Origin: Vibrio sp. SCSIO 43137 | GTDB lineage: Bacteria; Pseudomonadota; Gammaproteobacteria; Enterobacterales; Vibrionaceae | NCBI RefSeq assembly: GCF_028201475.1 | Contig: NZ_CP116384.1 | Coordinates: 186,001 to 250,000, forward strand | Direction: 5' to 3' | DNA: 64,000 nt | Part shown: positions 32,325 to 50,731 of the stretch, in pieces | How positions within the stretch are numbered: position 1 is the stretch's first letter | Layout of the letters: each line of letters starts with the position of its first letter | The notes under the pieces: model-generated | Told to the model about the DNA's origin: nothing | The model's input: only the letters and a program-made list of their open reading frames with translations | Databases searched by the model: none | Translations under genes and position numbers: made by a program

Positions 32325-34331
32325 TTAGATCTTAGCGATCTCTGCCAGGAACTCAGCTTGTTCAGAGTTCTTACGGTAGAACACGGCTGGCTGGCCGATT
32401 GGTGCGTCTACTTCAATCCAGCCACCGGTAAAGGTTGCGCCGCTCCATACGTGAACCCATTCATCTTCCGGCAGGTAAACGCGCTTAACGGTTTCGCCTT
32501 GGTTGTATACAGGTGCAACCAGCAAGTCGCGGCCAAACAGATACTGGAACTTAATCTCGTAAGACTCACTGTCCTGCTCGTAGTGCATAAACAGCGGACG
32601 CTGAATTGGCATACCTTTTTCAGAGTTCTCTTTAGAAGCTGCTTTGATGTACGGCTTCAGATGCTTGAAGATCTTAGTCATACGAGCCAGATGAGCCAGT
32701 GTTTCGCCATCGGTGTCGAACTGGTGGTTGTCACCCGGACGGTTACCTTCGTGGCTACGCATAATTGGGGTAAATGCCGCCATTTCTGCCCAGCGCTGGA
32801 ACAGCTCTTTAGAACGCTTACAGCCGTGCAGGGTTGTGTAACCACCAATATCACTGTGGTGGATACCGTTACCCATCAGGCCGGATGACAGAGCTGCCGG
32901 AATAACGGATGCTAAGCCGTCATCGATACACCAGTCTACCAGCTGGTCACCGCCCCAAAGGGTGTGGCAGTAGCCCTGAATGCCTGTGCCGCCTGCGCGC
33001 ATAAAGAACAGGATATCATCGGTTTTACCCGCTTCTTCGATAGCTTCGTGCTGAACTTTAGCCCAGCGGTATGGCCATTTGTTGTGCTCGATTTCTGCGC
33101 TCACGCCATTGCTTAGTGAGCAGTCTGTCGGCAGGTATTCGCCAAAGTCACCCATCCAGCCGTCAAGTCCGAAGTCGATCATATTGGACTTAATTACGCC
33201 CTTATACCATTCGCACGCTTCAGGGTTAGTAAAGTCCACAACACCGCAGTAAAACTCACCAAAGTCGACAACGTATTTTGAGCCGTCTTGTTTGGTGGCC
33301 AGATAACCTTTGCTTTGTGCTTCTTCGTATAGAGGGAAGTCTTCCAGAACATATGGGTTGATGTAACCAAGGAAGCGTACGCCTTCTTCTTTAAGCTGGT
33401 GGATCTTCTTGTCCAGCTCTGGGTATAGATCTTTGTTCCATTGCCAGTCCCACTGAAGGCGCTTACCAAATGAAGTCATCTTGATGCCCTGCCAGTCCTG
33501 ACACCATGCACCAGCTACTTCTACACCTGCTTCTTTAGCGGCTTTGATCTTATCAAGAGTAATTTCTGTACCGCCCTGAATACCAAGGATAACGCCGTTA
33601 GTTACCCAGTCTGGCAGCTCAGGCTGACGTCCGAACAAGCCGGTAATGTTCTCTACCAGCTCAGGGAATGAGTTTTCTGAATCAAGGATCAGATACTCAG
33701 GGATGTTCCAGCACTGCAGCTCATGGAACTCTGTATTAGTGAAATCGAAATCTGCATAAGCCGTTGTTTCAAGATGGCAGAAGTATTTCTTATCAGAAAC
33801 AAACGTCGGCTGAGGATAGTTGGTGTTGTAGTAATCGCCGCCGGCTTTGTCTTTAGTATCTGCCAGCCAGGTAACATAAGAGTTTTTGTTACGCCCTACA
33901 CCCGGCTCAGAAGACCATAGCGGGAAGTTTTTACCACGCAGGTTGAAGTAAGTTAACTGCTCACCACAACCGTACACTTTCTCTTCTTCCGTTGCGGTAA
34001 TTCTTAACCAGAAGCGGTTGTACTTTTTGTCCAGTGCCGCGAATTCTGCTTTAAGGCGTGATTCTGCCGTTTCAGATACGGTCATCTGAATAGCCGCTTC
34101 ACCGTCAAACAGGAAGGTAATCACAGTGCTTTGGCCGTTTTCTTCTACGCGGAAATGACGCATAGGTAAACGTTCAGTCACGTAATCGGTAATGTTGAAA
34201 TTACCACGATACATATCGTAGTTTGCTTCACCAACACCTAAGAATAGGGCTGGTTGCTCTACAGAATGAGTAAATACGGTTTTTTCTTTATGTTTAATGA
34301 CTAAAGATTTTTCGTTGTAGGATATGTCCAT
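32325..34331 (-). CDS. yihQ: Sulfoquinovosidase (GH31)
   Basis: A retaining alpha-glycosidase of 668 residues releasing sulfoquinovose from its glycosides, such as sulfoquinovosyl glycerol from plant and algal sulfolipid. The nucleophile is Asp395 in GWMGDFGEYLPTD and the acid/base is Asp462 in LWGGDQLVDW. The SQ-recognition region QDWQGIKMTSFGKRLQWDW and the later SDIGGYTT match E. coli YihQ rather than ordinary alpha-glucosidases. There is no signal peptide, so it is cytoplasmic and the glycoside must be imported. It is monocistronic on the minus strand with a GGAG site. Confidence 0.93.
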   Translation of the reverse strand: MDISYNEKSLVIKHKEKTVFTHSVEQPALFLGVGEANYDMYRGNFNITDYVTERLPMRHFRVEENGQSTVITFLFDGEAAIQMTVSETAESRLKAEFAALDKKYNRFWLRITATEEEKVYGCGEQLTYFNLRGKNFPLWSSEPGVGRNKNSYVTWLADTKDKAGGDYYNTNYPQPTFVSDKKYFCHLETTAYADFDFTNTEFHELQCWNIPEYLILDSENSFPELVENITGLFGRQPELPDWVTNGVILGIQGGTEITLDKIKAAKEAGVEVAGAWCQDWQGIKMTSFGKRLQWDWQWNKDLYPELDKKIHQLKEEGVRFLGYINPYVLEDFPLYEEAQSKGYLATKQDGSKYVVDFGEFYCGVVDFTNPEACEWYKGVIKSNMIDFGLDGWMGDFGEYLPTDCSLSNGVSAEIEHNKWPYRWAKVQHEAIEEAGKTDDILFFMRAGGTGIQGYCHTLWGGDQLVDWCIDDGLASVIPAALSSGLMGNGIHHSDIGGYTTLHGCKRSKELFQRWAEMAAFTPIMRSHEGNRPGDNHQFDTDGETLAHLARMTKIFKHLKPYIKAASKENSEKGMPIQRPLFMHYEQDSESYEIKFQYLFGRDLLVAPVYNQGETVKRVYLPEDEWVHVWSGATFTGGWIEVDAPIGQPAVFYRKNSEQAEFLAEIAKI

Positions 34332-34614
34332 TATTGGCTCCGGAAAATAGGAAACTAATACTAATTCGCTTATTTAATTCCTGTTACTTATTGTAACTAA
34401 AATATTGCTCTAACTGTCTTTCGATCTTTGTCATCGAGCCTCTTTGTCAAAGGGAAATACCGATAAACAAACCCTCTGTGCCATGGATGGCACGGTGGAG
34501 CCCCACGGATGGGTTTATGCGTGTTTGTGTTCGGTGTTTTCCAGCGTGACTCAGATTTAGGGTTTAAATAAAAAAACTAAATGTATTTTAAATTAAATAG
34601 TTATAGGTAAAGGT
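34332..34614. other. yihQ upstream region with 90-bp hairpin element
   Basis: No gene. It should hold the yihQ promoter (34340-34440 is AT-rich, no clear consensus), then a hairpin repeat at 34453-34542 and an AT-rich tail before the dctP terminator. Confidence 0.6.
34453..34542 (+). repeat. 90-bp palindromic element, copy 1
   Basis: Terminal inverted repeat GGAAATACCG / CGGTGTTTTCC, inner stem GTGCC-ATGGAT-GGCAC, outer AAACCC/GGGTTT and conserved GGTGGAGCCCCA. It is the same length and order as 56202-56291, where the terminal arms are GCAAATATCG/CGATATTTGC and the inner stem is GCGCC/GGCGC. Paired changes keep the fold. Confidence 0.7.
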
Positions 34615-34643
34615 TATAAATAAAGGGGAGAAAAACTCCCCTT
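34615..34643 (-). terminator. Terminator of the TRAP operon
   Basis: On the minus strand AAGGGGAG-TTTTT-CTCCCCTT is followed by TATTTAT, 66 bases after the dctP stop. A CCACCG/CGGTGG inverted repeat lies just before it. Confidence 0.85.
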
Positions 34644-34708
34644 AAATATATTCAGAACTTTCTGCCACCGCCTGTGACGGTGGAGAAATCTAACCAGTAC
34701 GGGTTTGA

Positions 34709-35758
34709 TTAATTAAACTGTACTTTGTAGTCAGAATCGATTTTCGCTTCACAAGTCTTGATCTCTTTCTGGAAGCGCTCTAACCACTGCTTACCTTCTG
34801 CACCAGAGTTAGCAAGGAAGTAGTCACGTACAGGTCCTGCTGATTTCTGGAATTCTGCTTTTTCTGCATCAGTTGGGTTATAGATGTTACCGCCCGCTTT
34901 CTTGAACTCTTCGTAAGCTGTGTATTCACGGTGCTTAGGATAAGAACGCAGGTACTGGTTCTGAGCACTGATACCGTCGATAAGTACGCGTTTCAGGTCA
35001 TCAGGCATAGACTTGAATTTCTTATCGTTGAATACCCATGCGCCACCCATGTAGGCGTGTCCGTCAAGAACCATGTAGTCCAGGCTTTCCTGGAAACGGT
35101 TCTGTACGATATCTACGATACCGTTCTTAGTACCATCAACAACACCAGTAGACAGTGCTGTGTATACTTCAGGCCATGCGATAGGAGTCGGAGAACCACC
35201 TAGCTCTTTAACCAGCTCCTGCTGAATTTTTGCAGGAACAGTACGCAGTTTCAGACCCTGAACGTCAGCCGGAGATTTAACCTGCTTCTTCGTGGTCGCG
35301 ATGTTACGCCAGCCACCAGAGTTAGATACCATCATCAGACGTGAGTTAGGGGCTTTTTTCAGAACGTTTTGACGCACGTCACCAAGGAACTCTTCGTTAT
35401 CGTATACACACTCTGCTACACGGTCATTTGGCAGCATGTATGGCAGGTCAAATGAACCGATTGGCTGCCAGTAGTTTGCCAGTTCAGCAATCGTTGTCTG
35501 GAAGTAATCGAACATACCTGCCTGAATACCGGCTAGACACTCTTTTGCGTTGCTACATAGCTGACCAGATGGATAGATATCAACTTCAATAGCACCGTTA
35601 GAACGTGACTCAACGTAGTTCTTGAACACCAACAGTGACTGGTGGTTGTAGCTATCAAGGTTAGATACGTGTGGTACGGTCAGTTTAAAGTCGGCCGCGT
35701 TAGCCGCGCCGGATGCTAAAATTGCTGTTGTTGCTAATCCAAGTAGTGTTTTCTTCAT
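34709..35758 (-). CDS. TRAP transporter periplasmic binding protein (DctP family)
   Basis: 349 residues with a signal peptide, MKKTLLGLATTAILASGAANA, cleaved before ADFKLTVPHV. The TRAP solute-binding fold is visible in GLKLRTVPAKIQQELVKELGG, with the anion-binding arginine in LRT, and in PTPIAWPEVYTALSTGVVDG. Context implies a sulfonated ligand, either SQ, sulfoquinovosyl glycerol or DHPS. TRAP systems such as HpsKLM carry DHPS elsewhere. It is the last gene of the dctQ-dctM-dctP operon. Confidence 0.9.
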   Translation of the reverse strand: MKKTLLGLATTAILASGAANAADFKLTVPHVSNLDSYNHQSLLVFKNYVESRSNGAIEVDIYPSGQLCSNAKECLAGIQAGMFDYFQTTIAELANYWQPIGSFDLPYMLPNDRVAECVYDNEEFLGDVRQNVLKKAPNSRLMMVSNSGGWRNIATTKKQVKSPADVQGLKLRTVPAKIQQELVKELGGSPTPIAWPEVYTALSTGVVDGTKNGIVDIVQNRFQESLDYMVLDGHAYMGGAWVFNDKKFKSMPDDLKRVLIDGISAQNQYLRSYPKHREYTAYEEFKKAGGNIYNPTDAEKAEFQKSAGPVRDYFLANSGAEGKQWLERFQKEIKTCEAKIDSDYKVQFN

Positions 35759-35821
35759 GTTATGTTCCTTAACAGTACATTTTTAAATAGTTATTAATGC
35801 TTCACGTAAATTAATTGAGTT

Positions 35822-37111
35822 CTACATAACCCCAAGTAGCTGCGGTAAACCGATAACCAGCGATGGGAAGAATGAGATTAAGAAGATGATTAGGAACTCC
35901 ATTGCAAGGAACGGAATAATCGCCTTCGAAATTTGCTGTAGTGGTACTCCGGATACACCTGAGGCAACGAAAAGTACCAGCCCCATTGGTGGTGTCGCTA
36001 ACCCGATAGACAGGTTACATACCATCACCACACCGAAGTGTACTGGGTCGATTCCTGCTGCAATCATAATTGGGGCAATGATTGGAGCGAAGATAAGGAT
36101 TGCAGGTCCCGCATCAAGGAACATACCCACAACGAACAGGAATATGTTGATGATAAAGAACAGCATATAAGGGTTGTCTGTTACGCCGTTAAAGAAGGCA
36201 GCAACGCTGTTTGAGATACCTGAGAAGCTGATTGCAGAGGCAAAACCACTGGCCGCAGCAACGATAATAAGAATCGCAGCAGCATTAACGGCAACTTTAG
36301 AGAACAGTGCGTAAGTTGCCTTGATATCACTGACTTTAAGGATGTAGACAGAAAGAATGATGGCGTAAAGCACAGCTACAGCAGCCGCTTCAGTTGGTGT
36401 GAAGATACCACCATAGATACCACCCAGAATGATAACCGGAGTCATCAGCGGCAGGATAGCCATCTTAAAGCTCTTACGACGCTCTTCTTTACTTGCTCTC
36501 TCAAATGGTTGTACGTCAGGGTACTTACGGATCTGAATACGGTTTACCAACATCAGGCCCAGGCAGAAAATAAGTCCCGGTACGATACCTGATAAGAACA
36601 TTGCTGCTACAGATGTGTTCATTACGAACGCATAGATCAGCATGATACCTGATGGCGGGATAATGGTACCAAGTACCGTTGCTGCCGCTGTCAGAGCTGC
36701 CGCATACGCTTTGTTGTACTTATACTTGGTCATTTCAGGGATCAGCATATTACCGATTGCTGATGTCGCGGCTACCGCTGAGCCGGTAAGGGCACCAAAC
36801 AAGGTAGAGGCGATAATAACAACATGACCTAGGCCGCCGCGCAGATGCTGTACACGAGTCTGAGCGAAAGAGATGATACGAGGTGTAATGCCACCGCTGG
36901 ACATACACTCACCCGCCAGCATAAAGAAAGGCAGAGCAAGTAGCAGGAAGTTATCCAGACCAGAGTAGAGTCTCTGGTACAGCATATTGATAAACAGAAC
37001 CTGATCATCCTGAATAAAGGTGATGATTGGCGATAAGCCCAGTGCAAAAAGTACCGGCACACCAATGATCAGGAAAGTCATAAAATAGAAGAGGAAAATT
37101 GGAGAAATCAT
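35822..37111 (-). CDS. TRAP transporter large permease (DctM family)
   Basis: 429 residues with about 12 membrane helices. It has the DctM blocks SGGITPRIISFAQTRVQHLRGG, TALTGSAVAATSAIG-like GALTGSAVAATSAIGNMLIP and GIYGGIFTPTEAAAVAVLYA. It forms the sodium-driven translocation channel. It lies 63 bases upstream of dctP and 11 bases after dctQ. Confidence 0.93.
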   Translation of the reverse strand: MISPIFLFYFMTFLIIGVPVLFALGLSPIITFIQDDQVLFINMLYQRLYSGLDNFLLLALPFFMLAGECMSSGGITPRIISFAQTRVQHLRGGLGHVVIIASTLFGALTGSAVAATSAIGNMLIPEMTKYKYNKAYAAALTAAATVLGTIIPPSGIMLIYAFVMNTSVAAMFLSGIVPGLIFCLGLMLVNRIQIRKYPDVQPFERASKEERRKSFKMAILPLMTPVIILGGIYGGIFTPTEAAAVAVLYAIILSVYILKVSDIKATYALFSKVAVNAAAILIIVAAASGFASAISFSGISNSVAAFFNGVTDNPYMLFFIINIFLFVVGMFLDAGPAILIFAPIIAPIMIAAGIDPVHFGVVMVCNLSIGLATPPMGLVLFVASGVSGVPLQQISKAIIPFLAMEFLIIFLISFFPSLVIGLPQLLGVM

Positions 37112-37122
37112 AGTGTTACGTC

Positions 37123-37656
37123 CTATTCAGCAACTTCAGCTAACGTTTTTTTTTCGTCAGCAAAGTGAATTAACTTATGAATTTCCGATGCAAGCTTCTC
37201 TAATGCGGTCAGGCATGACAGAGCCAACATCACCGGTGGAATGATATAGATGGTGTACATAGGAATCGGCAGGCTATCCGCCATTACACCGCCCGTTTGA
37301 TAGAAGGCCCATCCATAGTAAATCCAGATTGCGAACAGGATTAATGCAGCTACATGCGCAACAATCAGAAACAGATGATAGATACGCAGGTTTCTGAACT
37401 TGTCAGTTACGAATGTCATTGCAATGTTTTGGTCGCGAAGATAGACGATAGGCAGACACAGGTATGTCATGTAGATCATCAAAAATCGCGAGGTTTCATC
37501 GGTCCAGCTTAAAGGGATGTTCAAAATATAACGGCAGCCGACTTGCAGAAGTACGATAGCTGTCATTATCAAAAGCAGGATGCCTGAAAATTTGGCAGCA
37601 AAATTTGCTATTGGCGCGTTGATTTTATTCAACACTCTTTCAATATCCTTAAACAT
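37123..37656 (-). CDS. TRAP transporter small permease (DctQ family)
   Basis: 177 residues with four membrane helices. The signature WTDETSRFLMIYMTYL between helices 1 and 2 is typical of DctQ. It starts the TRAP operon and is separated from the aldolase gene by 238 bases. Those bases hold an AT-rich region with GTCACTTTGTG and TGTCACATTT (37816-37852), resembling motifs at other promoters of this cluster. Confidence 0.9.
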   Translation of the reverse strand: MFKDIERVLNKINAPIANFAAKFSGILLLIMTAIVLLQVGCRYILNIPLSWTDETSRFLMIYMTYLCLPIVYLRDQNIAMTFVTDKFRNLRIYHLFLIVAHVAALILFAIWIYYGWAFYQTGGVMADSLPIPMYTIYIIPPVMLALSCLTALEKLASEIHKLIHFADEKKTLAEVAE

Positions 37657-37894
37657 ATAGTCACCATAAAATACTTAGTTAGCGGGAGTTACTGACAGTC
37701 TTAGCAACTCCCTATGCAACAAATACACATTTGTTATTGTTTTGTTTTTCTGACGGTCATCCTACCAGTTTGTAACAAGTTAACCGTGATGTTTTTCCCA
37801 TCCAAACAAGTAATGTCACTTTGTGTATATTAAATGTCACATTTATTACTATTAATTGGAAAAGTTGCTCCATTTTTAAGCATAGTAAAATGGA

Positions 37895-38755
37895 TTAAGC
37901 TTTACCATTTGAGCCAAACAGGCGGATTTTATGCTGAACAACTTCTTTCATTGAGGCAATACCTGTGTTCATCACATCGGCCAGAATGAAATCGTTGCGG
38001 TCTTTATCCCAGTGGCTTTGAACACCGGTGATGAAACCTTGGCGCAGCTCGGTATCGACATTGATTTTGGCAACACCGCGTTTAACCGCTTCAACAACCT
38101 GATCATCCGGTACACCAGAGCCGCCGTGCAGTACGATTGGTTTCTTCACCGCTTCTTTGATTTCACTCAGGCGATCAAACTTAAGCTCAGGTGTTGTTTT
38201 GTAAACACCGTGAGCAGTACCGATTGAAACCGCCAGATAATCAACACCCGTACGCTCAGAGAAGTCCAGTGCTTCTTCTACTGTAGTGATCATGGCGTCT
38301 TTCTCATCAACCGTTATGTCATCTTCGGTTCCGCCGATTTTGCCGATTTCGCCTTCAGAGCCTAAGCCAAGAGCTGCTGCTACTTCTACCACTGCACGGG
38401 TAATACGTACGTTCTCTTCGAAAGGCAGTGCCGAGCCATCAAACATCAGTGACTGGAAGTCACGTGTCGCCGCTTCCATGCACTGCTCAAACTTGCGGCT
38501 GTGGTCCAGGTGAATACAAATAGGAACGCTGATTTGGTGGTGCTGGATAAGAGAGTCTACAGCATCACGCAGTGGCTTCATGCCCATTTCATTAATCGCC
38601 TTCTGGCCAATCTGAATCATGATAGGCGACTGTTCTTCTTCAGCAGCAAGAAGTACTGCTTTGATAGTTTCCAGGTTATGTGCTGTGAAAGCACCAATTG
38701 CGTAACCGTTTTGCCACGCTTCTTGAATCATTTTCTTACCTGATACGTAAGGCAT
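37895..38755 (-). CDS. Class II (zinc) aldolase, probable sulfofructose-1-phosphate aldolase
   Basis: 286 residues of the GatY/KbaY/FbaA type. Zinc and catalytic blocks are ICIHLDHSRKFEQC, GSEGEIGKIGGTED, SIGTAHGVYKTTPELKFDRL and VLHGGSGVPDD, followed by KINVDTELR. In the SQ pathway this step splits sulfofructose-1-phosphate into DHAP and sulfolactaldehyde. E. coli uses a class I enzyme (YihT), and no YihT homologue is seen here. The assignment rests on context. Its promoter region shares a 60-bp block with that of yihS. Confidence 0.85.
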   Translation of the reverse strand: MPYVSGKKMIQEAWQNGYAIGAFTAHNLETIKAVLLAAEEEQSPIMIQIGQKAINEMGMKPLRDAVDSLIQHHQISVPICIHLDHSRKFEQCMEAATRDFQSLMFDGSALPFEENVRITRAVVEVAAALGLGSEGEIGKIGGTEDDITVDEKDAMITTVEEALDFSERTGVDYLAVSIGTAHGVYKTTPELKFDRLSEIKEAVKKPIVLHGGSGVPDDQVVEAVKRGVAKINVDTELRQGFITGVQSHWDKDRNDFILADVMNTGIASMKEVVQHKIRLFGSNGKA

Positions 38756-38815
38756 TTGAAGAATCCTCTGTGTTTTACTTCGTTGTGATACAAATTATCA
38801 GGCTGGCATTATCAT

Positions 38816-38877
38816 TTCTGTTAGTTATGTATCACTTTTCGACATAAAAAAACAAAAGTGGACATTTATGAGCGCGA
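38816..38877 (-). promoter_or_regulatory. Shared promoter/operator block upstream of the aldolase
   Basis: The first 20-plus bases (TTCTGTTAGTTATGTATCAC followed by TTT) are identical to 46743-46765 upstream of yihS, and both continue to a GTGGACATTT/ATGGACATTT plus GAGCG at the same distance. CACTTTT...CAAAAGTG also forms an inverted repeat here. A common regulator is implied. Confidence 0.65.
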
Positions 38878-39028
38878 TCACACAGTTTTGATCGCGATAA
38901 TGTCTCTATTTAATACGCTTTTTAACGGAATGTCAGAGATGTTGCAGATTATGAGTAATATTTCGGACAGGTTTGTATTTTAGCGGCTCAGCATAGTGTT
39001 GAGCGGTTTACAATGAAGAGTAGAAAAC

Positions 39029-39054
39029 GAAAAAGAGCCTCAATAGAGGCTCTT
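39029..39054 (-). terminator. Terminator of the TauE/SafE gene
   Basis: On the minus strand AAGAGCCTC-TATT-GAGGCTCTT is followed by TTTCG, 34 bases after the stop. Confidence 0.85.
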
Positions 39055-39087
39055 AGTTACATGCGTTTACTGCTGTATTAAGCGAGA

Positions 39088-39828
39088 TTAAAAGTGGACG
39101 TTTTTGTAGACCAGCGCACAGCCGATAAACAGCAGAAAGCCGTGTACAAGATGGTGATAGTTAATCTTATACTTCTGTAATAAATGGTAGCTTCCCATCC
39201 CGCCTGCGATACCTACGGCAAAGGCCGGCAGTGCGGAGAGCACATGGGATAATACGTCTTCAGTAATTAGCCCTTCATTCCAGAAACTAATATTGGCGCC
39301 AATCATCTGCAGCATAAAAAAGAAAGTCAGAGTTGATTTAACTTCGTCTGCTGACCACGGCTGCATTGAAGTGTAGGCAATGACCGGAGGCCCCGACTCA
39401 CCAACGCTTGCGCCAAGAACGCCCGAAGTAAAACCGGCACCAATAGTGATGGGAATAGAGGTCTTTTCAAATACTGGTTTAGTGGAGCGGAACGAGTGCA
39501 GGCTGGAAATAATCAGCACTATACCCATGGTAAGCAGAATGTATTGAGATGGCATGGTTGCCAGCAGTCTTGCCCCGACAAATGACGCAGGAACCGAACC
39601 TGCAAACAGAATTAAACCAACCTTACGCTGGATAGAGTGACGCATTTTCCAGGCAATGGGCAGTGTCACTAACCAGCCAATAATACCGGCAATAGGTACA
39701 GCAGTCTGGGCACCGACAACAAGTGAAAGCAGGGGAACTGAAACCATCGCAGAACCGAATCCAGTCAGGCCCTGAGTAAAGCCGGCCAAGGCGATGATCA
39801 TTGAAACAAGTATAACCGTGGTGTCCAT
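39088..39828 (-). CDS. TauE/SafE-family anion exporter (probable sulfite or sulfonate export)
   Basis: 246 residues with about eight membrane helices. The start is the ATG at 39828 (AGGAAAT upstream). The longer reading to 39948 crosses an operator. The paired TauE/SafE repeats are visible as GFTQGLTGFGSAMVSVPLL at the N-terminus and GFTSGVLGASVGESGPPVIA in the middle. Family members export sulfite, sulfoacetate or sulfolactate. If the neighbouring glycyl radical enzyme releases sulfite, this is the expected exit route. Otherwise it would export DHPS. Confidence 0.9.
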   Translation of the reverse strand: MDTTVILVSMIIALAGFTQGLTGFGSAMVSVPLLSLVVGAQTAVPIAGIIGWLVTLPIAWKMRHSIQRKVGLILFAGSVPASFVGARLLATMPSQYILLTMGIVLIISSLHSFRSTKPVFEKTSIPITIGAGFTSGVLGASVGESGPPVIAYTSMQPWSADEVKSTLTFFFMLQMIGANISFWNEGLITEDVLSHVLSALPAFAVGIAGGMGSYHLLQKYKINYHHLVHGFLLFIGCALVYKNVHF

Positions 39829-39898: not shown

Positions 39899-39921
39899 GT
39901 CACAAAATGTTGTTTTGTGTC
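39899..39921. promoter_or_regulatory. Candidate regulator palindrome, copy 1
   Basis: GTCACAAAA-TGTTG-TTTTGTGTC, with arms CACAAAA/TTTTGTG. The same 23-bp sequence with one change occurs at 48920-48942 between yihU and yihV. This is a good candidate operator for the DeoR regulator encoded at 49973. Confidence 0.65.
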
Positions 39922-40070
39922 CGTTTGATTTCGCCTTGTGACAATCATCTCAGAAGAGAGGCTACCTCTTAAGTATAATGCGGCTAAATAACTCTTTGTC
40001 TGAAGGCATAAAGACCGTGAAGTTGTTTTATATACATAAAATCAGAACAAAATATAAAACAGTTCTCGGG

Positions 40071-40295
40071 AAAAGTTCTCAAAAGTTCTCGCAAGTTCTC
40101 GGGACACACACCAATTATGGACAATTATCGGGGACAGGCACCAGAAGTTATCGGGACAGAAACCGCAAGAGTTATTAGAACAGACACCATAAGACTCTAG
40201 TTCAGACTCTAGTTCTCGGGACACACACCGAATTTTCGGGCGAATTTTCGGGGACAGACACCATAAGACCGAATTTTCGGGGACAGACACCATAA
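40071..40295 (+). repeat. Array of seven GGGACA-NRCACC motifs with duplicated flanks
   Basis: Motif copies begin near 40101, 40130, 40153, 40178, 40218, 40250 and 40279. Most are preceded by a short direct duplication: AAAGTTCTC three times before the first, CAATTAT twice before the second, GACTCTAGTTC twice (40193-40216) and GAATTTTCGGG twice (40229-40251). The last two units also form a tandem repeat of 29 bases. Confidence 0.75.
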
Positions 40296-42932: not shown

Positions 42933-43898
42933 GTGTCATTTTCCAATGTGTCAGGCACAGTCCTTAATGTTCAGCGCTTCACTTTGCATGATGGTCCGGG
43001 TATCCGGACCGAATTCTTTCTTAAAGGATGCCCGCTCCGCTGTGACTGGTGTGGGAATCCGGAGAGTTTTAACAAGCGTGTCGAGGTTGGTGTTTATCAC
43101 AACAAATGTATAAGCAACAGTGAGTGTGGCGACTGTACAAGTGTCTGTCCTGACAGCGATATGCTGATTTTTTCTGACTCCAGGCTAGAGCTGGTGGATC
43201 GCAGCAAATGCAGCAGTTGTATGCTCTGTTCGCAGGAGTGCCCCGCGGAAGCAATAAAGCCGTGGGGCAGCAGCATGTCCGTTGAGGACTGTATGAAAGT
43301 CATTCTTCAGGACAGAGGCTTTTATAGCCGTTCCGGAGGTGGTGTTACCGTGTCCGGCGGAGAGCCTTTGATGCAGAGTGAGTTTGTATTACAGCTGTTT
43401 CAGGCCTGCCGGGAAGAGGACATACACACCTGTCTCGAATCGAGTTTCCATTCCAACTGGGAACAGATCGAAAAGCTGTTACCTTATACAGATCTTATTA
43501 TTTCCGATATAAAGCTGATGGATAGCGCAAAACATAAGCGCTATACCGGAGTAGATAACCACAAAATTTTACACAATCTGCAAAAACTGTCAGAAACAGA
43601 TAAAGAGATAATCCTGCGTATTCCGGTGATTCCCACAGTAAACGATGATAAAGACAATGCCGAAGCGACAGCCGACTTTATTCTCAACCAAATGAAGGGA
43701 AGAGTGAGAACATTACAGCTTCTGAGTTTTATGCGATTGGGAGAAGAAAAATATCAGTCTCTTGGTATGGATTACAAAATGGCAGATCTTGAGTTTGATC
43801 GTCATGAGTTTCAACAGCAGGTCAATGGCCTTGCTGGCTACTTTAATCAGCGCGGTATTCATTGTCTGGTAGGCACTAAAGAGAGTGAGGGAGGATAA
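42933..43898 (+). CDS. Glycyl radical enzyme activating enzyme (radical SAM)
   Basis: 321 residues starting at GTG five bases after the glycyl radical gene. The radical-SAM cluster is CPLRCDWC (CX3CX2C) near residues 33-40, with FTLHDGPGIRTEFFLKG before it. A ferredoxin-like insert with two cluster motifs (CGDCTSVCP and CSSCMLCSQECP) is typical of activases of dehydratase and lyase GREs. VSGGEPLMQ is the SAM-binding GGE motif. It installs the glycyl radical on the upstream enzyme. Confidence 0.93.
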   Translation: MSFSNVSGTVLNVQRFTLHDGPGIRTEFFLKGCPLRCDWCGNPESFNKRVEVGVYHNKCISNSECGDCTSVCPDSDMLIFSDSRLELVDRSKCSSCMLCSQECPAEAIKPWGSSMSVEDCMKVILQDRGFYSRSGGGVTVSGGEPLMQSEFVLQLFQACREEDIHTCLESSFHSNWEQIEKLLPYTDLIISDIKLMDSAKHKRYTGVDNHKILHNLQKLSETDKEIILRIPVIPTVNDDKDNAEATADFILNQMKGRVRTLQLLSFMRLGEEKYQSLGMDYKMADLEFDRHEFQQQVNGLAGYFNQRGIHCLVGTKESEGG

Positions 43899-43959: not shown

Positions 43960-44001
43960 AAAACTGAACAGTTCACTAATCTTAAGCTGTTCAGTTTTAT
44001 T
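43960..44001 (+). terminator. Terminator of the glycyl radical operon
   Basis: AAAACTGAACAG and CTGTTCAGTTTT form a 12-bp perfect stem ending in TTTTATT, 62 bases after the activase stop. Confidence 0.85.
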
Positions 44002-44131
44002 GCTGGACGGTAAGATCTACGCCTTGTGAATTATTACTGATTATCTATTTATGCAGTGTATAGATAAGGATATAACTTGTCTTACGGGGAGTGGTGCAAC
44101 TGGGAGAAATGATAAGAAGTTTTGGGCTATA

Positions 44132-45094
44132 TCAACTATCCAGCCGGAAAACACACATTTTGCGTTTATTGAGGATCCGTTTTGCTGATTCAATTTGAGG
44201 GCAACAACCAACAGCAGTGTTTCGGTATTGTTCTAATTTAGTGCAAGCCTTTAACCATTTGACTTGGCTGATATTCAGTCTCTGCAAAATGGGTGGAAGA
44301 GAGGAGCCTAAAACAACTTTGTTCTCGCGATATTGTCTTGCTGTCCAGTCGACTAGTTCAATGTAATCTATAAGCCGAAACGGGATACCTTTTAACATTT
44401 TATTGGTGGGATTACCGATAAATGGGTAAAGACATGGTGCAGTTTCTTGATCGTTACTCAGAGCCTTTATTCTGGCTTTGATGGAAGTATATTCTGAGGA
44501 TTCTGGTGTTTTGGCAATGCCTGAACGCAGAGGGTTTAAATCAACATAAGTCATAGCTGCTACGAGGGCTTGTTCGTCGAGCAGAGCTTGGCTCTTAAAG
44601 CGACTCTCCCAAAAATGCCCTTTACAGTTATCTTCTAGGTTTGCCCGACAAGCGATATCAAAGTTAAGCTCTTTCATAAACCAGCTCAGGTTCCAGAGCC
44701 GCTTTCGCCAGCATTCGATAATCGAAGATGCAGCCTTTTTCTCTGCATCACTGGTCAGTTTTCCGGCCTGCCAATTTTGAACAAGTAAAGGGGGTTTATG
44801 AAGTTGTTGCCAGCGTTCAACCACTTCGTATTCGCTGAGTTTTAAGGCTTCTTCTTTGTTGATATGAAGAACAAGATGATAGTGATTGCTCATCACTGCG
44901 TAAGCACAGACATCAATGCAATAGACCTGAGAAAGAGCGTAGACCTTATGCTCAATCCAATCTCTTCGGTGTTCGTAGCTTTTTTGGGTAACAGGATCTT
45001 CTCCGCATAGGAAGCTGCGCCTGACACAACGCGAAACGCAATGATAGTAAGGAGTTGCTTCAGGTGAGACGAGCTGTTTTCTGGCTGTTGTCAT
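44132..45094 (-). mobile_element. REP-associated tyrosine transposase (RAYT, Y1/IS200-like)
   Basis: 320 residues from the ATG at 45094. The single-strand transposase signature is AYAVMSNHYHLVLHI (HUH-like His-Y-His), with YVDLNPLRSGIAK downstream, the RAYT-specific block. RAYTs act on short REP sequences rather than carrying IS ends. Motifs of the GGGACA-NACACC type flank it on both sides (43905-43945 and 45214-45320). It is inserted within the SQ cluster, between the glycyl radical operon and yihS. Confidence 0.88.
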
Positions 45095-45198
45095 AGAAAG
45101 TAACCGGATAATGAGTGACAAACCGAGGTTACTCAATGAAGTCGTTGCGACAATGATTCAGTTATAAAGTCACGATCGAGTTATCACAAGATCAGTCG

Positions 45199-45345
45199 GT
45201 TCTAATACTTTTAGGTGTATGTCCCTACTTTTAGGTGTATGTCCCAATACTTTTTTCAATACTTTTTTGTTAGGTGTATGTCCCAATACTTTTTGCAATA
45301 CTTTTTGAGGTGTATGTCCCCGAAAAAAATGTGCCGAAAAAAATG
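45199..45345 (-). repeat. Array of GGGACATACACC motifs with duplicated flanks, upstream of RAYT
   Basis: On the minus strand four copies of GGGACATACACC occur (45309-45320, 45273-45284, 45234-45245, 45214-45225). Three are preceded by a duplicated flank: CATTTTTTTCGG twice (2-nt gap), AAAAAGTATTG twice (1-nt gap), and AAAAAGTATTG twice again. It fills the gap between the transposase and yihS. No gene is seen. Confidence 0.78.
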
Positions 45346-45370
45346 ACAGCCACGGGCTGCCATTTTTTGT
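45336..45370 (-). terminator. Terminator of yihS
   Basis: On the minus strand ATGGCAGCC-CGT-GGCTGTCAT is followed by seven T residues, 30 bases after the yihS stop. Its T tract merges with the duplicated flank of the motif array. Confidence 0.8.
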
Positions 45371-45398
45371 TATCAGGTTAACTTGCCTTTCGGTCAAC

Positions 45399-46652
45399 TT
45401 ATTTTTCCATATGGACATCAAGCTGACCGGCGGCCAGTGCCGGAGCAAGGCCCGGAGTCAACGGCAGGCGAGGAATAACTAGACAGTGCATCAGATGGTA
45501 GATATCTTGTTTACCATCCCATACTACGCTGGTACCAGCTTGGTTGTTTACATCAAGTTCTTGCCACCATGAGCAACCTTCATAGTCGATAAAGTAAGTG
45601 CGGCAGTAATCCCACCACAGGCGATAGAACTCCTGATACTTCTCATCACCAGTAACCGTGTAAAGGGCATAAGCAGTACCAATTGCTTCAACTGGTGCCC
45701 AGCGGATACGCTCACGTACAACCGGCTTGCCATCCCAGTCTACGGAATAAACAAAACCGGGAGCACCATCTACATGCCATGCATCGCGCACTGTTGCGTC
45801 GAACAGGCCGATTGCGTCTTCCAGCATCCATTCAGGAGCTTCAGCACCAATTTCCATCAGCGTTGCGCGAAGGTGACAAATCAGACGTCCCCACTCAATC
45901 CAGTGGCCCGGCGTACCGCCGTAGGCACGGAAGTGGCTGGCAGGTGTCTCTTTGTTGTAATCCGGTAGCGGATTCCAGTCAGAATCAAAGTGCTCGTTTA
46001 CACGGTAGCTCAGGCTTTTTGCTGTTTTATGGATCATAAACTCGGTGATGTTCAGCGCGCGATCCAACCACTTTTTGTCTTTAGTGACATCGTAAACGAT
46101 AAGGAAAGCTTCTACTGAGTGCATCGCCATATTACCGCCACGGTAATCTTCCGTTTCAGTGAATGCCTGATCCCATGACTCGTAACACATCTGCTTCTCT
46201 TCTACCCAGAAGTGTTTTTCGTAAACCGTAATCGCTTCATCCAGAAGAGCCTGAGCACGTGGGTGACCAGTTGTTACCGCACTGGCAGCACCAAGCAGTA
46301 CGAATGCGTGTTGGTAACCCTGCTTAGACGAATCCATAATGCCTTCGCCTTGGTTATCGATAGTGGCAAACCAGCCGCCATGAGTATTATCTTTAAGCGG
46401 ACCTTCCAGCGCTGCGATACCGTGCTCAACCAGATCCATAGCGCCCGGGCGACCCATTAGGGCTGCCAGAGAATAACAGTGCAGCATGCGTGATGTGATC
46501 CACAGGCGGGTGCCCATCTCTTCACGTACATTGCCGTTGTTACCAATCCAGCCAAAACCGTTCGGTACTACAGCATTTCTGCCGAATTCAAAAATTCTGT
46601 CTGTTTCAGTTTCTAACCAAGAGTTATGGGATCGGGTATTAATCCACTTCAT
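45399..46652 (-). CDS. yihS: Sulfoquinovose isomerase
   Basis: A 417-residue AGE-superfamily (alpha/alpha barrel) isomerase converting SQ to sulfofructose. It follows E. coli YihS very closely in the blocks I can recall, such as [63 protein letters not shown] and [18 protein letters not shown], which carry the catalytic histidines. The ATG at 46652 follows AGAGGAA. The TTG at 46658 is rejected. It is a single gene with its own promoter block (46743-46804) and terminator. Confidence 0.96.
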
Positions 46653-46742
46653 GCTCAAATTCCTCTATATTGTTTCTTGCTACTGAACAATTTTTCAAAG
46701 TATTGTTGATTGATAGTAAATCTATCAGCCTATGATGTTTAA

Positions 46743-46804
46743 TTCTGTTAGTTATGTATCACTTTGTGACAATAATAATCATAAATGGACATTTTTGAGC
46801 GTTG
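46743..46804 (-). promoter_or_regulatory. Shared promoter/operator block upstream of yihS
   Basis: Shares its first 23 bases with 38816-38838 upstream of the aldolase gene, then CACTTTGTGACAAT, and TGGACATTTTTGAGCG. See the aldolase block. Confidence 0.65.
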
Positions 46805-46833
46805 GAGCTAGTAAAATAGCTTTAGATGCTCAT

Positions 46834-46857
46834 AAAAAAAGCGCTCAGTACGAGCGC
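46834..46857 (-). terminator. Terminator of the yihU-galM operon
   Basis: On the minus strand GCGCTC-GTACT-GAGCGC is followed by seven T residues, 20 bases after the galM-like stop. Confidence 0.88.
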
Positions 46858-46876
46858 CTAAATAGTCCTTTTTGAC

Positions 46877-47938
46877 CTATCTGACACCAAACCGATGAAT
46901 GGTTTTTTCCTCAAACACGTCACCCGGATTAAGGCGGGTGCTAGGGAAGTGAGCCTGATTCGGGCTGTCCGGGAAGTGTTGAGTTTCCAGACATATGCCG
47001 TTACGGGACTCGTATTTATAACCGTTTCGGCCAAACCATGGTTTGTTGGACAACTTAAAACCGTTGTAAAACTGAACCCCGGGCTGGGTGGTCAGTACCG
47101 TCATATAGCGTCCGGACTCCGGTTCATAAAGCTCAGCAGCAAGTGCGTACTCGCCTTCGGTCTGCAGCCTGTTAAGCACATAGTTATGATCAAAGCCCTG
47201 ATCCGGCATTTTCTGTCCGTTCTCCCCAATGCGGGTTACAGAAGTAAAGTCCAGACCACTGCCTTTTACGGAGCGTATCTCACCCGTCGGGATTAGGTTT
47301 TCTGCTACCGGAGTATAGAAATCGGCATGTAACCTGAGCTGATGGTTATCTACTGTGCCTGAATCATGGCCAGCCAGATTGTAATAGCTATGGTTAACCA
47401 GATTGATAACCGTTGGCTTATCGGTAGTGGCTTTAAACCTGAAGTGCAGTTGGTTATCTTCATCCAGCCCGACCGTATGCACTACGTTCAAATTGCCACC
47501 GTAACCCGATTCACCATCCGGCGATACGCGACAAAAGTGAATAAAGATACCAGTTTCGCTCTGCTCTACTGAATAGTCCCAGACGTATTTATCAAAGCCT
47601 CTAGTGCCGCCGTGCAGGTGCTGAACTGTCGGTGGCTCGTTAGTTTCTAAACGGAACTCAACATTATCCAGCGAGTACTTACCATCTTTGATACGGTTGG
47701 CGTATCTGCCGGCAATCGCACCAAAGAAGGGGTGACCGGACAGATACTTCTCCAGATTTTCATAACCCAGAACCACATCTGCATTTTCACCGTTGCGGTC
47801 AGGCGTTTCGATGGAAGTGACGATACAACCATAGTTAGTGACCGATACTTTCATCCCTTTGCTGTTTTGCAGAGTAAACAGTTGAACTGGCTTATCCTGT
47901 CCTTCAACCATTCCCCATGGAGTCATTGTTAAGTTCAC
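46877..47938 (-). CDS. Aldose 1-epimerase (GalM family), probable SQ mutarotase
   Basis: 353 residues from a GTG at 47938 (AAAAGGCG upstream; an in-frame ATG at 47926 is possible). It has GalM landmarks: FFGAIAGRYANRI, HLHGGTRGFDKYVW, VNHSYYNLAGH (catalytic His) and GICLETQHFPDSPN (catalytic Glu). E. coli has a related epimerase, YihR, at this position. Here the protein is closer in length to true GalM. It would equilibrate SQ anomers after glycoside hydrolysis. It is 12 bases downstream of yihU. Confidence 0.88.
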   Translation of the reverse strand: MNLTMTPWGMVEGQDKPVQLFTLQNSKGMKVSVTNYGCIVTSIETPDRNGENADVVLGYENLEKYLSGHPFFGAIAGRYANRIKDGKYSLDNVEFRLETNEPPTVQHLHGGTRGFDKYVWDYSVEQSETGIFIHFCRVSPDGESGYGGNLNVVHTVGLDEDNQLHFRFKATTDKPTVINLVNHSYYNLAGHDSGTVDNHQLRLHADFYTPVAENLIPTGEIRSVKGSGLDFTSVTRIGENGQKMPDQGFDHNYVLNRLQTEGEYALAAELYEPESGRYMTVLTTQPGVQFYNGFKLSNKPWFGRNGYKYESRNGICLETQHFPDSPNQAHFPSTRLNPGDVFEEKTIHRFGVR

Positions 47939-47949
47939 GTTAGCGCCTT

Positions 47950-48843
47950 TTATTTGATTTTCGCTTCCAGACCTGAAGTAACACGTAGCTGTTCAAGAAC
48001 GGAAGTCCAGTCCTGACGGCCACGGCCTGCAGCACGGGCAATACTATACAGTTCACGGGATGCTGCACCGCACGGCATAGGTACATTAACCTGATTAGCA
48101 AGGTCAAGGGCAATACCTAAATCTTTATGGGCAAGATCAAGCATAAATGCCGGAGAGAGATCGCCCGCTAACACCTTGCCCGGCCAGGTTGTTGTAAAGT
48201 GACCTTTCCCTGCCGGAGTGCCTTGCATAACTGCAAGTGCAGTTTCGAAATCAAGGCCGATGGCTTCAGCAAGTGTTGCCGCTTCTGCAGACAGAGCATT
48301 TAGTGCAATACTCATATAGTTATTGATGATTTTTACCCGGCTGCCTTTACCTGCACCGCCGGCGTCAATGGTTTCACTGCCCATGCAGTCGAACAGTGGC
48401 TGAGCTTTAGCAATCTGCTCTTTAGTGCCACCGGCAAGGATAAGAAGTTCACCGCGTACCGCGTGATCAGATGTGCGGCCAACAGGTGCTTCCATCATGT
48501 CAAAGCCGTTTTCTTTCATCTCTTTGATTAACGCGTCGGTTTCAAAAGGATGGATAGTAGACATATCAATAAGCAGAGCATCTTTGCTCATGGATTCTGT
48601 AATACCTTGTTCGCCCCAGATAACGTTACGAACCAGAGAACCATTGGGAAGCATAGTGACAATAAATTCTGCATCCAGTGCGGCTTCAGACGGAGAGCTG
48701 GCAGCAACGGCGCCTTGCTCTGTTAGTGCTGCTACAGCATCTTTGCTGATATCGAACACCTTAAGGGAGTGACCACCTTTAATCAGATTTGAAGCCATTG
48801 GGCTGCCCATTTGGCCAAGACCGATAAAGCCGATAGTAGACAT
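47950..48843 (-). CDS. yihU: 3-Sulfolactaldehyde reductase
   Basis: A 297-residue beta-hydroxyacid dehydrogenase reducing sulfolactaldehyde to DHPS with NADH. It aligns closely with what I recall of E. coli Yih[21 protein letters not shown] (nucleotide fold), [51 protein letters not shown] (catalytic Lys), [20 protein letters not shown] and [10 protein letters not shown]. It produces the substrate proposed for the glycyl radical enzyme. It is divergent from yihV. Confidence 0.96.
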
Positions 48844-48919
48844 GAGTTTTTCCTTATTAACAGTTTGAGATTACTTGAGTGTAACTATAACGTTTTTGAC
48901 AGGAACTACTGTAATCAAT

Positions 48920-48963
48920 GTCACATAATGTTGTTTTGTGTCATTTGATGTTGTTTTGTGATT
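48920..48963. promoter_or_regulatory. Candidate DeoR operator region between yihU and yihV
   Basis: GTCACATAA-TGTTG-TTTTGTGTC (48920-48942) repeats the palindrome at 39899-39921 with one change. A second TGATGTTGTTTTGTGATT follows at 48946-48963 as a direct repeat. A TATAAT at 48993-48998 faces yihV, 73 bases before its start. Confidence 0.68.
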
Positions 48964-49070
48964 GCAATCTCAGCCAAATAAGTCATTTTTCTTATAATAG
49001 ACGGAAATGTTGACCAGCTGCTGCCTGAATCAGTATAAAGGCGGTACATAACCAGAAAGAGATTAGAGCA

Positions 49071-49958
49071 ATGCCAATAGCATGTGTAGGAATAACCGTA
49101 TTAGATAGAATTCAGCGCGTTCAGGCCCTTCCGTCCAGCGGAGGCAAGTATGTCGCTACCGATTACTTTGAAGTTGGTGGCGGTCCTGCGGCTACTGCTG
49201 CAGTGGCAGTGGCTAAATTAGGTAAGCCGGTTGATTTTATCGGACGTGTCGGCGGTGATTCTGTTGCTGATATCATGCTGTCAGAGCTTGCAGGGTATGG
49301 CGTTAACGTTAATAACTCTGTGCGGATTTCTGCTGCCTCTTCATCATTTTCAGCTGTTTTGGTTGATGACGAAGGGGAGCGTATGATCATTAACTATCAG
49401 GATCCTTCATTGAGCCGGGATATAGAACCGCTGAAATCTGTCGACTTCTCTACATACTCAACCATCTTGTGTGATGTACGTTGGCCGGAAGGGGCAGAAT
49501 ATGCTCTTAAACAGGCAAAAAAATACGGCATTCCATCAGTTCTTGATGCAGATTTATCTCCGGAACCAATTGATAAACTGGTTGAACTTGCTGATCACGT
49601 TGCCTTTTCTGAACCTGGTCTTGCTCGTTTTACTGAGACAGAAGACCCAATTAAAGGGTTAGAAATTGCTCAAAAAAGGACAAATGGCAAGGTTTATGTT
49701 ACTGTCGGCGCCAAAGGATGCTATTGGCTGGAGAATGGTGAGCTGATGCATCAACAAGGTAAAAAAGTAGCTGTTGTTGATACCACCGGAGCTGGTGATG
49801 TATTTCACGGTGCTTTTGCTGTCGCCGTTTCTGAAGAGATGGAAACACGTAATGCGGTTATTTTCTCGAATACGGTAGCAGCGTTAAAATGTACAAAATT
49901 AGGCGGGCGCGAGGGGATTCCGGATAGACAAACCGTTGACGCTGATATCGCCGTATAA
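49071..49958 (+). CDS. yihV: 6-Deoxy-6-sulfofructose kinase
   Basis: A 295-residue PfkB-family kinase making sulfofructose-1-phosphate. It parallels E. coli YihV from the start (CVGITVLDRI), through VGGGPAATAAVAVAKLG and DFIGRVGGDS, the substrate block ILCDVRWPEGA, DHVAFSEPGLARFT, and the catalytic VDTTGAGDVFHGAFAVA to KCTKLGGREGIPD. It is followed after 14 bases by the DeoR regulator in the same transcript. Confidence 0.95.
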   Translation: MPIACVGITVLDRIQRVQALPSSGGKYVATDYFEVGGGPAATAAVAVAKLGKPVDFIGRVGGDSVADIMLSELAGYGVNVNNSVRISAASSSFSAVLVDDEGERMIINYQDPSLSRDIEPLKSVDFSTYSTILCDVRWPEGAEYALKQAKKYGIPSVLDADLSPEPIDKLVELADHVAFSEPGLARFTETEDPIKGLEIAQKRTNGKVYVTVGAKGCYWLENGELMHQQGKKVAVVDTTGAGDVFHGAFAVAVSEEMETRNAVIFSNTVAALKCTKLGGREGIPDRQTVDADIAV

Positions 49959-49972
49959 TAATAAGGTTTATC

Positions 49973-50731
49973 ATGACTAATCCAAGACAAGACAAATTAC
50001 TGCAGTTAGTTATAGATAAAGGTTACTGTACCGTTGAGGAGTTAGCAGAAGCCCTTGAGGTTTCTACGCAGACTATTCGCCGGGATATTAAAAAGCTGAG
50101 TGACAAACGTATGATCGTTCGTCACCACGGAGGAGCAAGCTCTCCATCCAGCACAGTAAACCTGGACTATGAAATCCGTAAAGTATCAGAAACAGAAGAG
50201 AAAAACGCCATTGGCGAGCGAATTGCGGAGATGATTCCCGATAACTCTACTGTGTTTCTGACTATCGGTACTACAACTGAAGTGATTGCCAGCCACCTGC
50301 TTAAGAAGAATAATCTTCAGGTGATTACGAACTCGTTGCGGGTTGCCAATGTACTTCACAGTAACAAAAGTTTTGATGTGTTAATTCCGAGCGGAAAAAT
50401 CAGGGCATCGAATGGTGGCATTGTTGGTACGGAAGCTATCGACTTTATCGGCAACTTCCGGTTTGATTATCTGGTGACCAGCGCCGGTTCAATAGATGCT
50501 GACGGCACTCTGCTTGAGTATGATCTAAATGAGACCGCTATTTCTCAGACAGTAATTAAGTCTGCCAGAAATGTGTTTGTTGCACTGGATTCAACCAAAT
50601 ACACTCCGAAAGGCTCCATAGAGCTTGGGCATATCAGCGAAGCAACAGTGTTCTTTACTGATGAGATGCCGCCGGATGATATTAAGGAAGTAATTGATCA
50701 GAGCCAGGTAAAACTGGAAATCTGTAATTAG
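49973..50731 (+). CDS. yihW: DeoR-family regulator of the SQ cluster (CsqR/YihW type)
   Basis: 252 residues. The N-terminal DeoR helix-turn-helix is CTVEELAEALEVSTQTIRRD followed by IKKLSDKRMIVRHHGGA. The C-terminal sugar-phosphate sensor domain has FLTIGTTTEVIA, VITNSLRVA, GGIVGTEAIDF and VALDSTKYTPKG. In E. coli the equivalent YihW (CsqR) represses the operon and is relieved by SQ derivatives. Candidate operators are listed at 39899 and 48920. Confidence 0.92.
   Translation: MTNPRQDKLLQLVIDKGYCTVEELAEALEVSTQTIRRDIKKLSDKRMIVRHHGGASSPSSTVNLDYEIRKVSETEEKNAIGERIAEMIPDNSTVFLTIGTTTEVIASHLLKKNNLQVITNSLRVANVLHSNKSFDVLIPSGKIRASNGGIVGTEAIDFIGNFRFDYLVTSAGSIDADGTLLEYDLNETAISQTVIKSARNVFVALDSTKYTPKGSIELGHISEATVFFTDEMPPDDIKEVIDQSQVKLEICN

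Follow-up and report, generated by a model that had tools for sequence, protein, structure and literature searches.

A predicted extended sulfo-EMP pathway with an HpfG-type glycyl radical enzyme and no HpfD orthologue in Vibrio sp. SCSIO 43137

Introduction

Several systems related to the sulfoglycolytic Embden-Meyerhof-Parnas (sulfo-EMP) degradation of the plant sulfosugar sulfoquinovose (SQ) have been reported from Vibrio and its relatives. Both HpfG and HpfD have been described in a sulfo-EMP cluster of Vibrio scophthalmi (Wei et al. 2022, PMC9594981), HpfG-dependent extended sulfoglycolysis has been stated for marine Vibrio (PMC11489063), sulfo-EMP2 genes have been noted in Vibrionaceae (PMC10991401), and a hybrid sulfo-EMP/SqiA pathway has been demonstrated in Vibrio mediterranei (Liu et al. 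2026, PMC13372026). HpfG, a glycyl radical enzyme (GRE) acting on 2,3-dihydroxypropane-1-sulfonate (DHPS), is reported to cleave a C-O and not a C-S bond, with 3-sulfopropionaldehyde as the product (PMC11489063, PMC12890257).

Here, we describe a locus at positions 32325-50731 of a stretch of 64,000 nucleotides from Vibrio sp. SCSIO 43137 (contig NZ_CP116384.1, positions 186,001 to 250,000; the whole stretch is hereafter called the window). It is quite likely that this locus encodes a hybrid-type sulfo-EMP pathway in extended form, in which DHPS would be dehydrated by HpfG with its activase HpfH and the resulting aldehyde reduced, most plausibly by the sulfolactaldehyde reductase YihU, the C-S bond staying intact. 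The proposal builds on family membership, gene order, the absence of an HpfD orthologue and a shared promoter motif, from which we infer the substrates, the product, what the transport proteins carry and that YihU has a double role.

Identity of the glycyl radical enzyme

The GRE encoded at 40396-42927 scores 1631.9 bits with the HpfG model (NF048009) and 482.9 bits with the HpsG model (NF048011), the cut-off being 1000 for each, and the activase encoded by the adjoining gene (42933-43898) passes the HpfH model (572.6 bits, cut-off 500) and fails the HpsH model (323.3 bits, cut-off 430). The enzyme is most likely an HpfG-type dehydratase, which would remove water from DHPS and not free sulfite. 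The first-pass annotation had credited the cluster with a C-S bond-breaking step of its own, which these scores contradict, and since HpfG breaks C-O and not C-S, the sulfite, hydroxyacetone and 1,2-propanediol that it named are not predicted products. It was right in that one cell combines a sulfo-EMP gene set, here a hybrid containing a class II aldolase, with a GRE whose family acts on DHPS. As both NF048009 (dehydratase) and NF048011 (sulfolyase) carry the description "(2S)-3-sulfopropanediol dehydratase", automatic product names cannot separate the two enzymes, and only the short names do.

The window HpfG is 76% identical to its counterpart in Klebsiella spallanzanii and 72% to that in Hungatella hathewayi, and it matches 203 of the 205 columns invariant among 63 HpfG sequences outside two marine groups. 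Its sites include Cys478, Glu480, His205, His322, Ser323, Asp492 and the radical Gly819; the first two, His205 and Asp492 are identical in all 81 aligned HpfG sequences, and Gly819 in 80, with one gap. Aligned to glycerol dehydratase 1r8w, the protein retains a Cys, a Glu, two His, a Ser and an Asp, which we take to be the catalytic or active-site residues of that enzyme. A His common to glycerol dehydratase and the window HpfG presumably lies at the site of IslA Gln193 and HypD His160, an assignment made without an alignment to IslA. The C-S lyase IslA is reported to have Gln193 where the dehydratase HypD has His160 (PMC8473560). HpsG was over its cut-off in none of 247 Vibrionaceae genomes and in none of 398 Pseudomonadota (best score 583 bits); no positive-control genome passed either search, so that absence is only suggested.

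Two further HpfG-like cases were observed. A divergent GRE in another genome (G150, C54:178295-180736, locus L191) reaches 933 bits, under the cut-off of 1000, beside HpfH-like and HpfD-like neighbors that are 39% and 36% identical, and may act on a different substrate. In Chakrabartyella piscis (L124), a pair of HpfG-like proteins is encoded in one locus; their identities to the window HpfG are 68% and 72%.

Gene organization and sulfo-EMP functions

Profile searches of the open reading frames (ORFs) against NCBIfam and Pfam, together with comparison to Protein Data Bank (PDB) chains, confirmed the gene set at 32325-50731, in which YihQ, YihS, YihU, YihV, a YihW-type regulator, a GalM-family protein, a tripartite ATP-independent periplasmic (TRAP) transporter, an aldolase, a TauE-family protein, a GRE and an activase are all present, as had been noticed at first pass. 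The same genes recur together in the same order in relatives, which shows that they have not come together by chance. Two features that had gone unmentioned, a gldA-dhaKLM module (18337-23781) and a transposase-like ORF (44132-45136), are included in the list below, in window coordinates; the labels YihS, YihV and YihW denote Pfam family plus conserved cluster position, no dedicated model having been passed.

18337-19461, minus strand: GldA glycerol dehydrogenase (NF006941, 558 bits, cut-off 336)
19544-23781, plus strand: DhaK, DhaL and DhaM of dihydroxyacetone kinase (TIGR02363 468 bits, TIGR02365 254 bits, TIGR02364 124 bits, all over their cut-offs)
32325-34331, minus strand: YihQ-type GH31 sulfoquinovosidase (NF007746, that is PRK10426, which we take to be the YihQ model, 1004 bits, cut-off 553; Pfam GH31)
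34709-35758, minus strand: TRAP substrate-binding protein (NF037995, 164.8 bits, cut-off 50)
35822-37111, minus strand: TRAP large permease (TIGR00786, 399 bits, cut-off 268)
37123-37656, minus strand: TRAP small permease, by position and conserved order only
37895-38755, minus strand: class II ketose-bisphosphate aldolase, SqiA-type, apparently in place of YihT (PF01116; PDB 8q58/8q57)
39088-39828, minus strand: TauE/SafE-family exporter (PF01925, 82 bits)
39902-39927, plus strand: operator-like motif, second-best matrix match of the window (17.8 bits)
40396-42927, plus strand: HpfG glycyl radical DHPS dehydratase (NF048009)
42933-43898, plus strand: HpfH radical SAM activase (NF048008; CPLRCDWC at residue 33)
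44132-45136, minus strand: ORF resembling a transposase of the tyrosine type associated with repetitive extragenic palindromic (REP) elements (NF047646, 42.5 bits, under the cut-off of 80)
45399-46658, minus strand: YihS-type SQ isomerase (PF07221, 402 bits; conserved cluster position)
46877-47938, minus strand: GalM-family mutarotase in the YihR role (PF01263, 273 bits)
47950-48843, minus strand: YihU sulfolactaldehyde reductase (NF012005, 497 bits, equivalog cut-off 348; nearest PDB chain 6sm7, 445 bits)
48923-48948, plus strand: operator-like motif between yihU and yihV, best matrix match of the window (20.7 bits)
49071-49958, plus strand: YihV-type PfkB sulfofructose kinase (PF00294, 170 bits; conserved cluster)
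49973-50731, plus strand: DeoR-family regulator, YihW/CsqR-like by position (PF00455, PF08220; conserved cluster)

The SQ isomerase, sulfofructose kinase, sulfofructose-1-phosphate aldolase and sulfolactaldehyde reductase are thus encoded together, YihU alone being assigned by an equivalog model and the others by family and conserved cluster; the YihS-type isomerase fails the D-mannose isomerase model (502, cut-off 600). The PDB chains nearest to the aldolase are 8q58 and 8q57 (409 and 391 bits, the next best being 223), both of which we take to be SqiA-type aldolases. The class I aldolase YihT was not found in a scan limited to genes of the cluster, where the class II enzyme stands instead. 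The TRAP transporter is a probable importer of SQ or SQ-glycerol, judged from its context. The ORF at 44132-45136, which has no Pfam match and lies between the two halves of the cluster, is probably an insertion outside the pathway. In another genome (G011), two sulfo-EMP loci were seen (L163 and L168), one of which adjoins hpfG.

Proposed pathway

The pathway would begin with import of SQ or SQ-glycerol by the TRAP transporter and release of SQ by YihQ, after which the mutarotase, YihS and YihV would convert SQ to sulfofructose-1-phosphate and the SqiA-type class II aldolase would cut the latter into dihydroxyacetone phosphate and sulfolactaldehyde. YihU would then use NADH to reduce sulfolactaldehyde to DHPS. 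Under anoxia, HpfG, once HpfH has activated it, would dehydrate DHPS to 3-sulfopropionaldehyde, which a reductase, likeliest YihU, would convert to 3-hydroxypropanesulfonate, and this product would leave through the TauE-family exporter with its C-S bond intact and no sulfite formed. The extra step catalyzed by HpfG and the reductase would consume one more NADH per SQ and so offer an electron outlet. Conversion of SQ to DHPS and pyruvate would be NADH-neutral, and the glycerol of SQ-glycerol would add two NADH on its way to pyruvate; HpfG and the reductase would absorb one of these two, which would be useful when GldA and DhaKLM use the glycerol of SQ-glycerol.

Distribution of HpfG, YihU and HpfD in Vibrionaceae

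We surveyed 329 Vibrionaceae genomes for HpfG (over the model cut-off), YihU orthologues (E <= 1e-110) and HpfD (E <= 1e-130), which were found in 31, 32 (79-100% identity) and 6 genomes, respectively. Among the 31 genomes with HpfG, YihU without HpfD occurs in 24, HpfD without YihU in 6, and both in none; the single genome with neither (G273) is 79% complete and consists of 1370 contigs. HpfG is present in 24 of the 32 genomes with YihU versus 7 of the 297 without it (Fisher p ~1e-23, uncorrected for kinship), and all six HpfD genes adjoin hpfG. The search of the family for the same gene set, suggested at first pass, recovers HpfG and YihU together in 24 of 329 genomes, with HpfD in none of them. 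No HpfD orthologue was detected in the present genome at E <= 1e-130, the best match being 40% identical.

The marine sequences form two sister clades of 13 and 5 members in a phylogeny of 81 HpfG proteins. The window HpfG belongs to the larger (support 0.993), together with 11 Vibrio sequences and one from Alginatibacterium, and HpfD was not seen in any of these 13 loci within the fetched sequence (up to 10 kb on each side). In the smaller clade, HpfD is in view in four of five loci, and the remaining one is cut short by a contig end.

The combination of HpfG with sulfo-EMP genes in Vibrio (PMC9594981, PMC11489063) and the hybrid SqiA pathway (PMC13372026) are already in print, and the kind of pathway is covered by reviews. 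A published account of sulfo-EMP clusters without HpfD was not found in a literature search made without most subscription papers or supplements, which is consistent with the HpfD-less parts list of HpfG-bearing sulfo-EMP Vibrionaceae being the new point.

Candidate reductases for 3-sulfopropionaldehyde

The most likely reductase for 3-sulfopropionaldehyde is YihU itself, because HpfD is absent and YihU is present in 24 of 24 genomes that define this group. Succinic semialdehyde is the carboxylate analogue of 3-sulfopropionaldehyde. E. coli YihU has been reported as a hydroxybutyrate dehydrogenase in succinic semialdehyde metabolism (according to a title in the references of PMC4197876). A fuller version of this idea, which we offer tentatively and rate as possible but somewhat short of even chances, is that YihU acts twice, on sulfolactaldehyde to give DHPS and on 3-sulfopropionaldehyde to give 3-hydroxypropanesulfonate; HpfGH would then form a plug-in of two genes that shares its regulator with the sulfo-EMP genes, makes the capacity for NADH consumption per SQ twice as large and allows SQ-glycerol to be fermented.

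Several observations weigh against these proposals. YihU of E. coli has a strong preference for sulfolactaldehyde over succinic semialdehyde. No fixed residue difference separates the YihU sequences of 25 HpfG-positive rows from those of 8 HpfG-negative rows, which gives no indication of adaptation, and a specialization of YihU in HpfG-positive genomes was rejected on this ground; the HpfG-negative rows are scattered over the tree (4 changes). In some loci of Firmicutes (for example, L100, L101 and L108), YihU-like and HpfD-like genes stand together beside HpfG, and therefore a sulfolactaldehyde reductase alone does not make HpfD dispensable; the YihU-like proteins of these loci are only ~30% identical to that of the window. 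HpfG is missing from 8 of the 32 YihU-bearing Vibrionaceae genomes, and the split between HpfD and YihU may reflect two HpfG lineages and few events instead of many independent ones. As to the pathway as a whole, an Enterocloster strain with hpfGHD is reported to convert SQ to DHPS anoxically with no detectable 3-hydroxypropanesulfonate (PMC12330013), and V. mediterranei AbY-1905 is reported to form DHPS stoichiometrically in shaken culture (PMC13372026), although a GRE would be off under shaking. We consider the extended sulfo-EMP pathway to be probably functional.

With HpfG acting as a dehydratase, it is unlikely that a GldA-type iron alcohol dehydrogenase, and not YihU, reduces its product, even though GldA (at least 74% identity) occurs in 23 of the 24 genomes with HpfG and YihU versus 2 of the 7 with HpfG but no YihU, 18 of the 24 (hand count) have gldA no more than 40 kb from hpfG or yihU, and GldA belongs to PF00465, the Pfam family given for V. 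scophthalmi HpfD (PMC9594981). Of the two candidates only YihU is present in all 24 genomes, since one with HpfGH and YihU (G267) has no GldA at E <= 1e-100, and HpfD is only distantly related, scoring 49 bits with the glycerol dehydrogenase model (cut-off 336). Moreover, a dihydroxyacetone kinase gene flanks gldA in 10 of 11 fetched gldA loci (the eleventh is cut at the gene), which suggests glycerol use, and both genes lie beside yihQ in three of eight HpfG-negative clusters (G207, G151 and G168), so that gldA is not tied to HpfG. Glycerol derived from SQ-glycerol has been proposed for Faecalicatena (PMC11659671), and the same explanation fits gldA here. YihU is accordingly our first choice among the candidates, with GldA second.

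We also regard as improbable that 3-sulfopropionaldehyde is reduced by some other housekeeping alcohol dehydrogenase or oxidized to 3-sulfopropionate as in Enterococcus gilvus. Nine PF00465 matches are present in the genome, among them the best match to HpfD mentioned above, but HpfD-like genes of such grade are not common to the set, the best in G158 being 28% identical, and no HpfX-type or HpfYZ-type gene of the oxidative route was seen among the annotated cluster genes, the genome not having been searched for them.

The TauE-family exporter

The tauE gene adjoins hpfG in 23 of the 24 genomes with HpfG and YihU and lies within the sulfo-EMP cluster in the other (G210). All eight Vibrionaceae that have YihU without HpfG likewise carry it inside or next to their sulfo-EMP cluster, and the canonical HpfG-HpfD cluster of V. 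superstes (L119) carries a TauE-family gene of its own. A tauE gene is hence no evidence for sulfite, and a role as sulfite exporter was rejected; the protein is probably an exporter of C3-sulfonates, namely DHPS or 3-hydroxypropanesulfonate. The weakest alternative, an HpsG-type DHPS sulfolyase yielding sulfite and hydroxyacetone, with TauE exporting the sulfite and GldA forming 1,2-propanediol, draws on the position of the GRE next to sulfo-EMP genes, on the TauE name and on gldA lying within the window, but is very improbable, as the HpsG and HpsH scores are under their cut-offs, tauE has the distribution just given, GldA reaches 543 bits on the L-1,2-propanediol/glycerol equivalog (cut-off 700) while passing the general glycerol dehydrogenase cut-off, and the non-detection of HpsG in relatives adds weak evidence.

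Shared promoter motif

An upstream motif links the hpfG region (39902-39927) with the yihU/yihV promoter (48923-48948). A first matrix was built from 28 of 33 yihU/yihV gaps; for the other five, the sequence retrieved did not include a gap that could be used. Scores above 16.1, the maximum of 480 letter-shuffled tauE/hpfG gaps, were obtained by 26 of these 28 training gaps and by 14 of 24 tauE/hpfG gaps (13 of 23 once a duplicate is removed). The tauE/hpfG gap of the window scored only 9.5 with this matrix, within the shuffled range, and 2.5 with a second one, owing to a premature tauE start in the ORF list, which places the site at 39902 inside an over-long ORF; the listed start is 39948, and relatives (many of 246 residues) and the N-terminus favor one near 39828. 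With another matrix, for which a seed pattern was used to choose 14 tauE/hpfG instances outside this genome, the two best matches of the window are those at 48923 and 39902, and the reversed window reaches at most 12.9 bits with a near-identical matrix. The motif also occurs in several genomes in which hpfG and yihU are over 35 kb apart or on different replicons (G237, G249, G267, G143, G181 and G278), and it is under the threshold in L174, L175, L171, L184, L159, L164, L153, L154 and L158. We infer that the DeoR-family regulator may bind both sites.

Two other regulatory candidates were rejected. The third-best match in the window, in the gldA/dhaK promoter, reaches 13.2 bits, close to the maximum of the reversed window, and between the two genes of five other gldA/dhaK loci the motif scores at best 11.8, one having none above 7. 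An FNR-like site before hpfG has two mismatches at best, and its place varies among the 10 of 24 rows that show it.

Other features of the window and genome

A run of ORFs at 26995-32192, between gldA-dhaKLM and yihQ, of which one of five scanned matches Pfam (DUF2971), is perhaps an inserted island. Repeats of the GGGACAGACACC type, which are REP-like elements, number 27 in the window (up to 2 mismatches) versus 2.84 expected, for example at 40101-40291 and 45214-45320; seven lie in the tauE/hpfG gap and four next to the ORF that resembles a transposase. The genome has a second gldA-dhaKLM module (C2, ~1.296 Mb, L192), the two GldA proteins being 88% identical. A second GRE of another subfamily (C2:168700-170980, L193) consists of two adjacent ORFs corresponding to the first and second halves of its model, has an activase-like gene nearby and looks interrupted.

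Comparison with known systems

The locus resembles the ten-gene hybrid sulfo-EMP/EMP2 cluster of V. mediterranei AbY-1905 in having YihS-, YihU- and YihV-type genes and a SqiA-type aldolase (PMC13372026). DHPS is the end product reported for that strain with shaking, in a main text that does not contain "glycyl radical" or "HpfG"; HpfGH is encoded in a different V. mediterranei genome (isolate 50, L053). HpfG is carried by 24 of the 32 YihU-bearing Vibrionaceae genomes, and the DHPS end point, which was measured in shaken culture, may not hold under anoxic conditions.

HpsG, the DHPS sulfolyase of Bilophila and Desulfovibrio, is likewise a GRE acting on DHPS but cleaves C-S. The fate of SQ sulfur in anoxic marine niches would hinge on which GRE meets DHPS, HpsG leading to sulfite and then sulfide and HpfG to 3-hydroxypropanesulfonate, on which Bilophila is reported not to grow (PMC11489063). 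HpfG is also part of the HpfG-HpfH-HpfD-HpfE systems of Klebsiella oxytoca and Hungatella, which have HpfD (PMC11489063, PMC12890257), and the six Vibrionaceae with the canonical HpfG-HpfD form have no YihU, unlike the present genome. The extended sulfoglycolytic transaldolase pathway of Enterococcus gilvus (HpfGHDE and HpfXYZ) likewise joins sulfoglycolysis and HpfG in one cell, but differs in its transaldolase entry, the presence of HpfD and an extra oxidative branch (PMC11489063). The closest case is V. scophthalmi, for which an HpfD of PF00465 is named (PMC9594981), whereas no HpfD orthologue was found here or in the 24 sulfo-EMP Vibrionaceae with HpfG; the protein so named could be a true HpfD or GldA, both of which belong to PF00465. 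Like the present strain, V. scophthalmi is a marine Vibrio that combines sulfo-EMP genes with HpfG, and the product predicted for it is 3-sulfopropanol, that is, 3-hydroxypropanesulfonate (PMC9594981).

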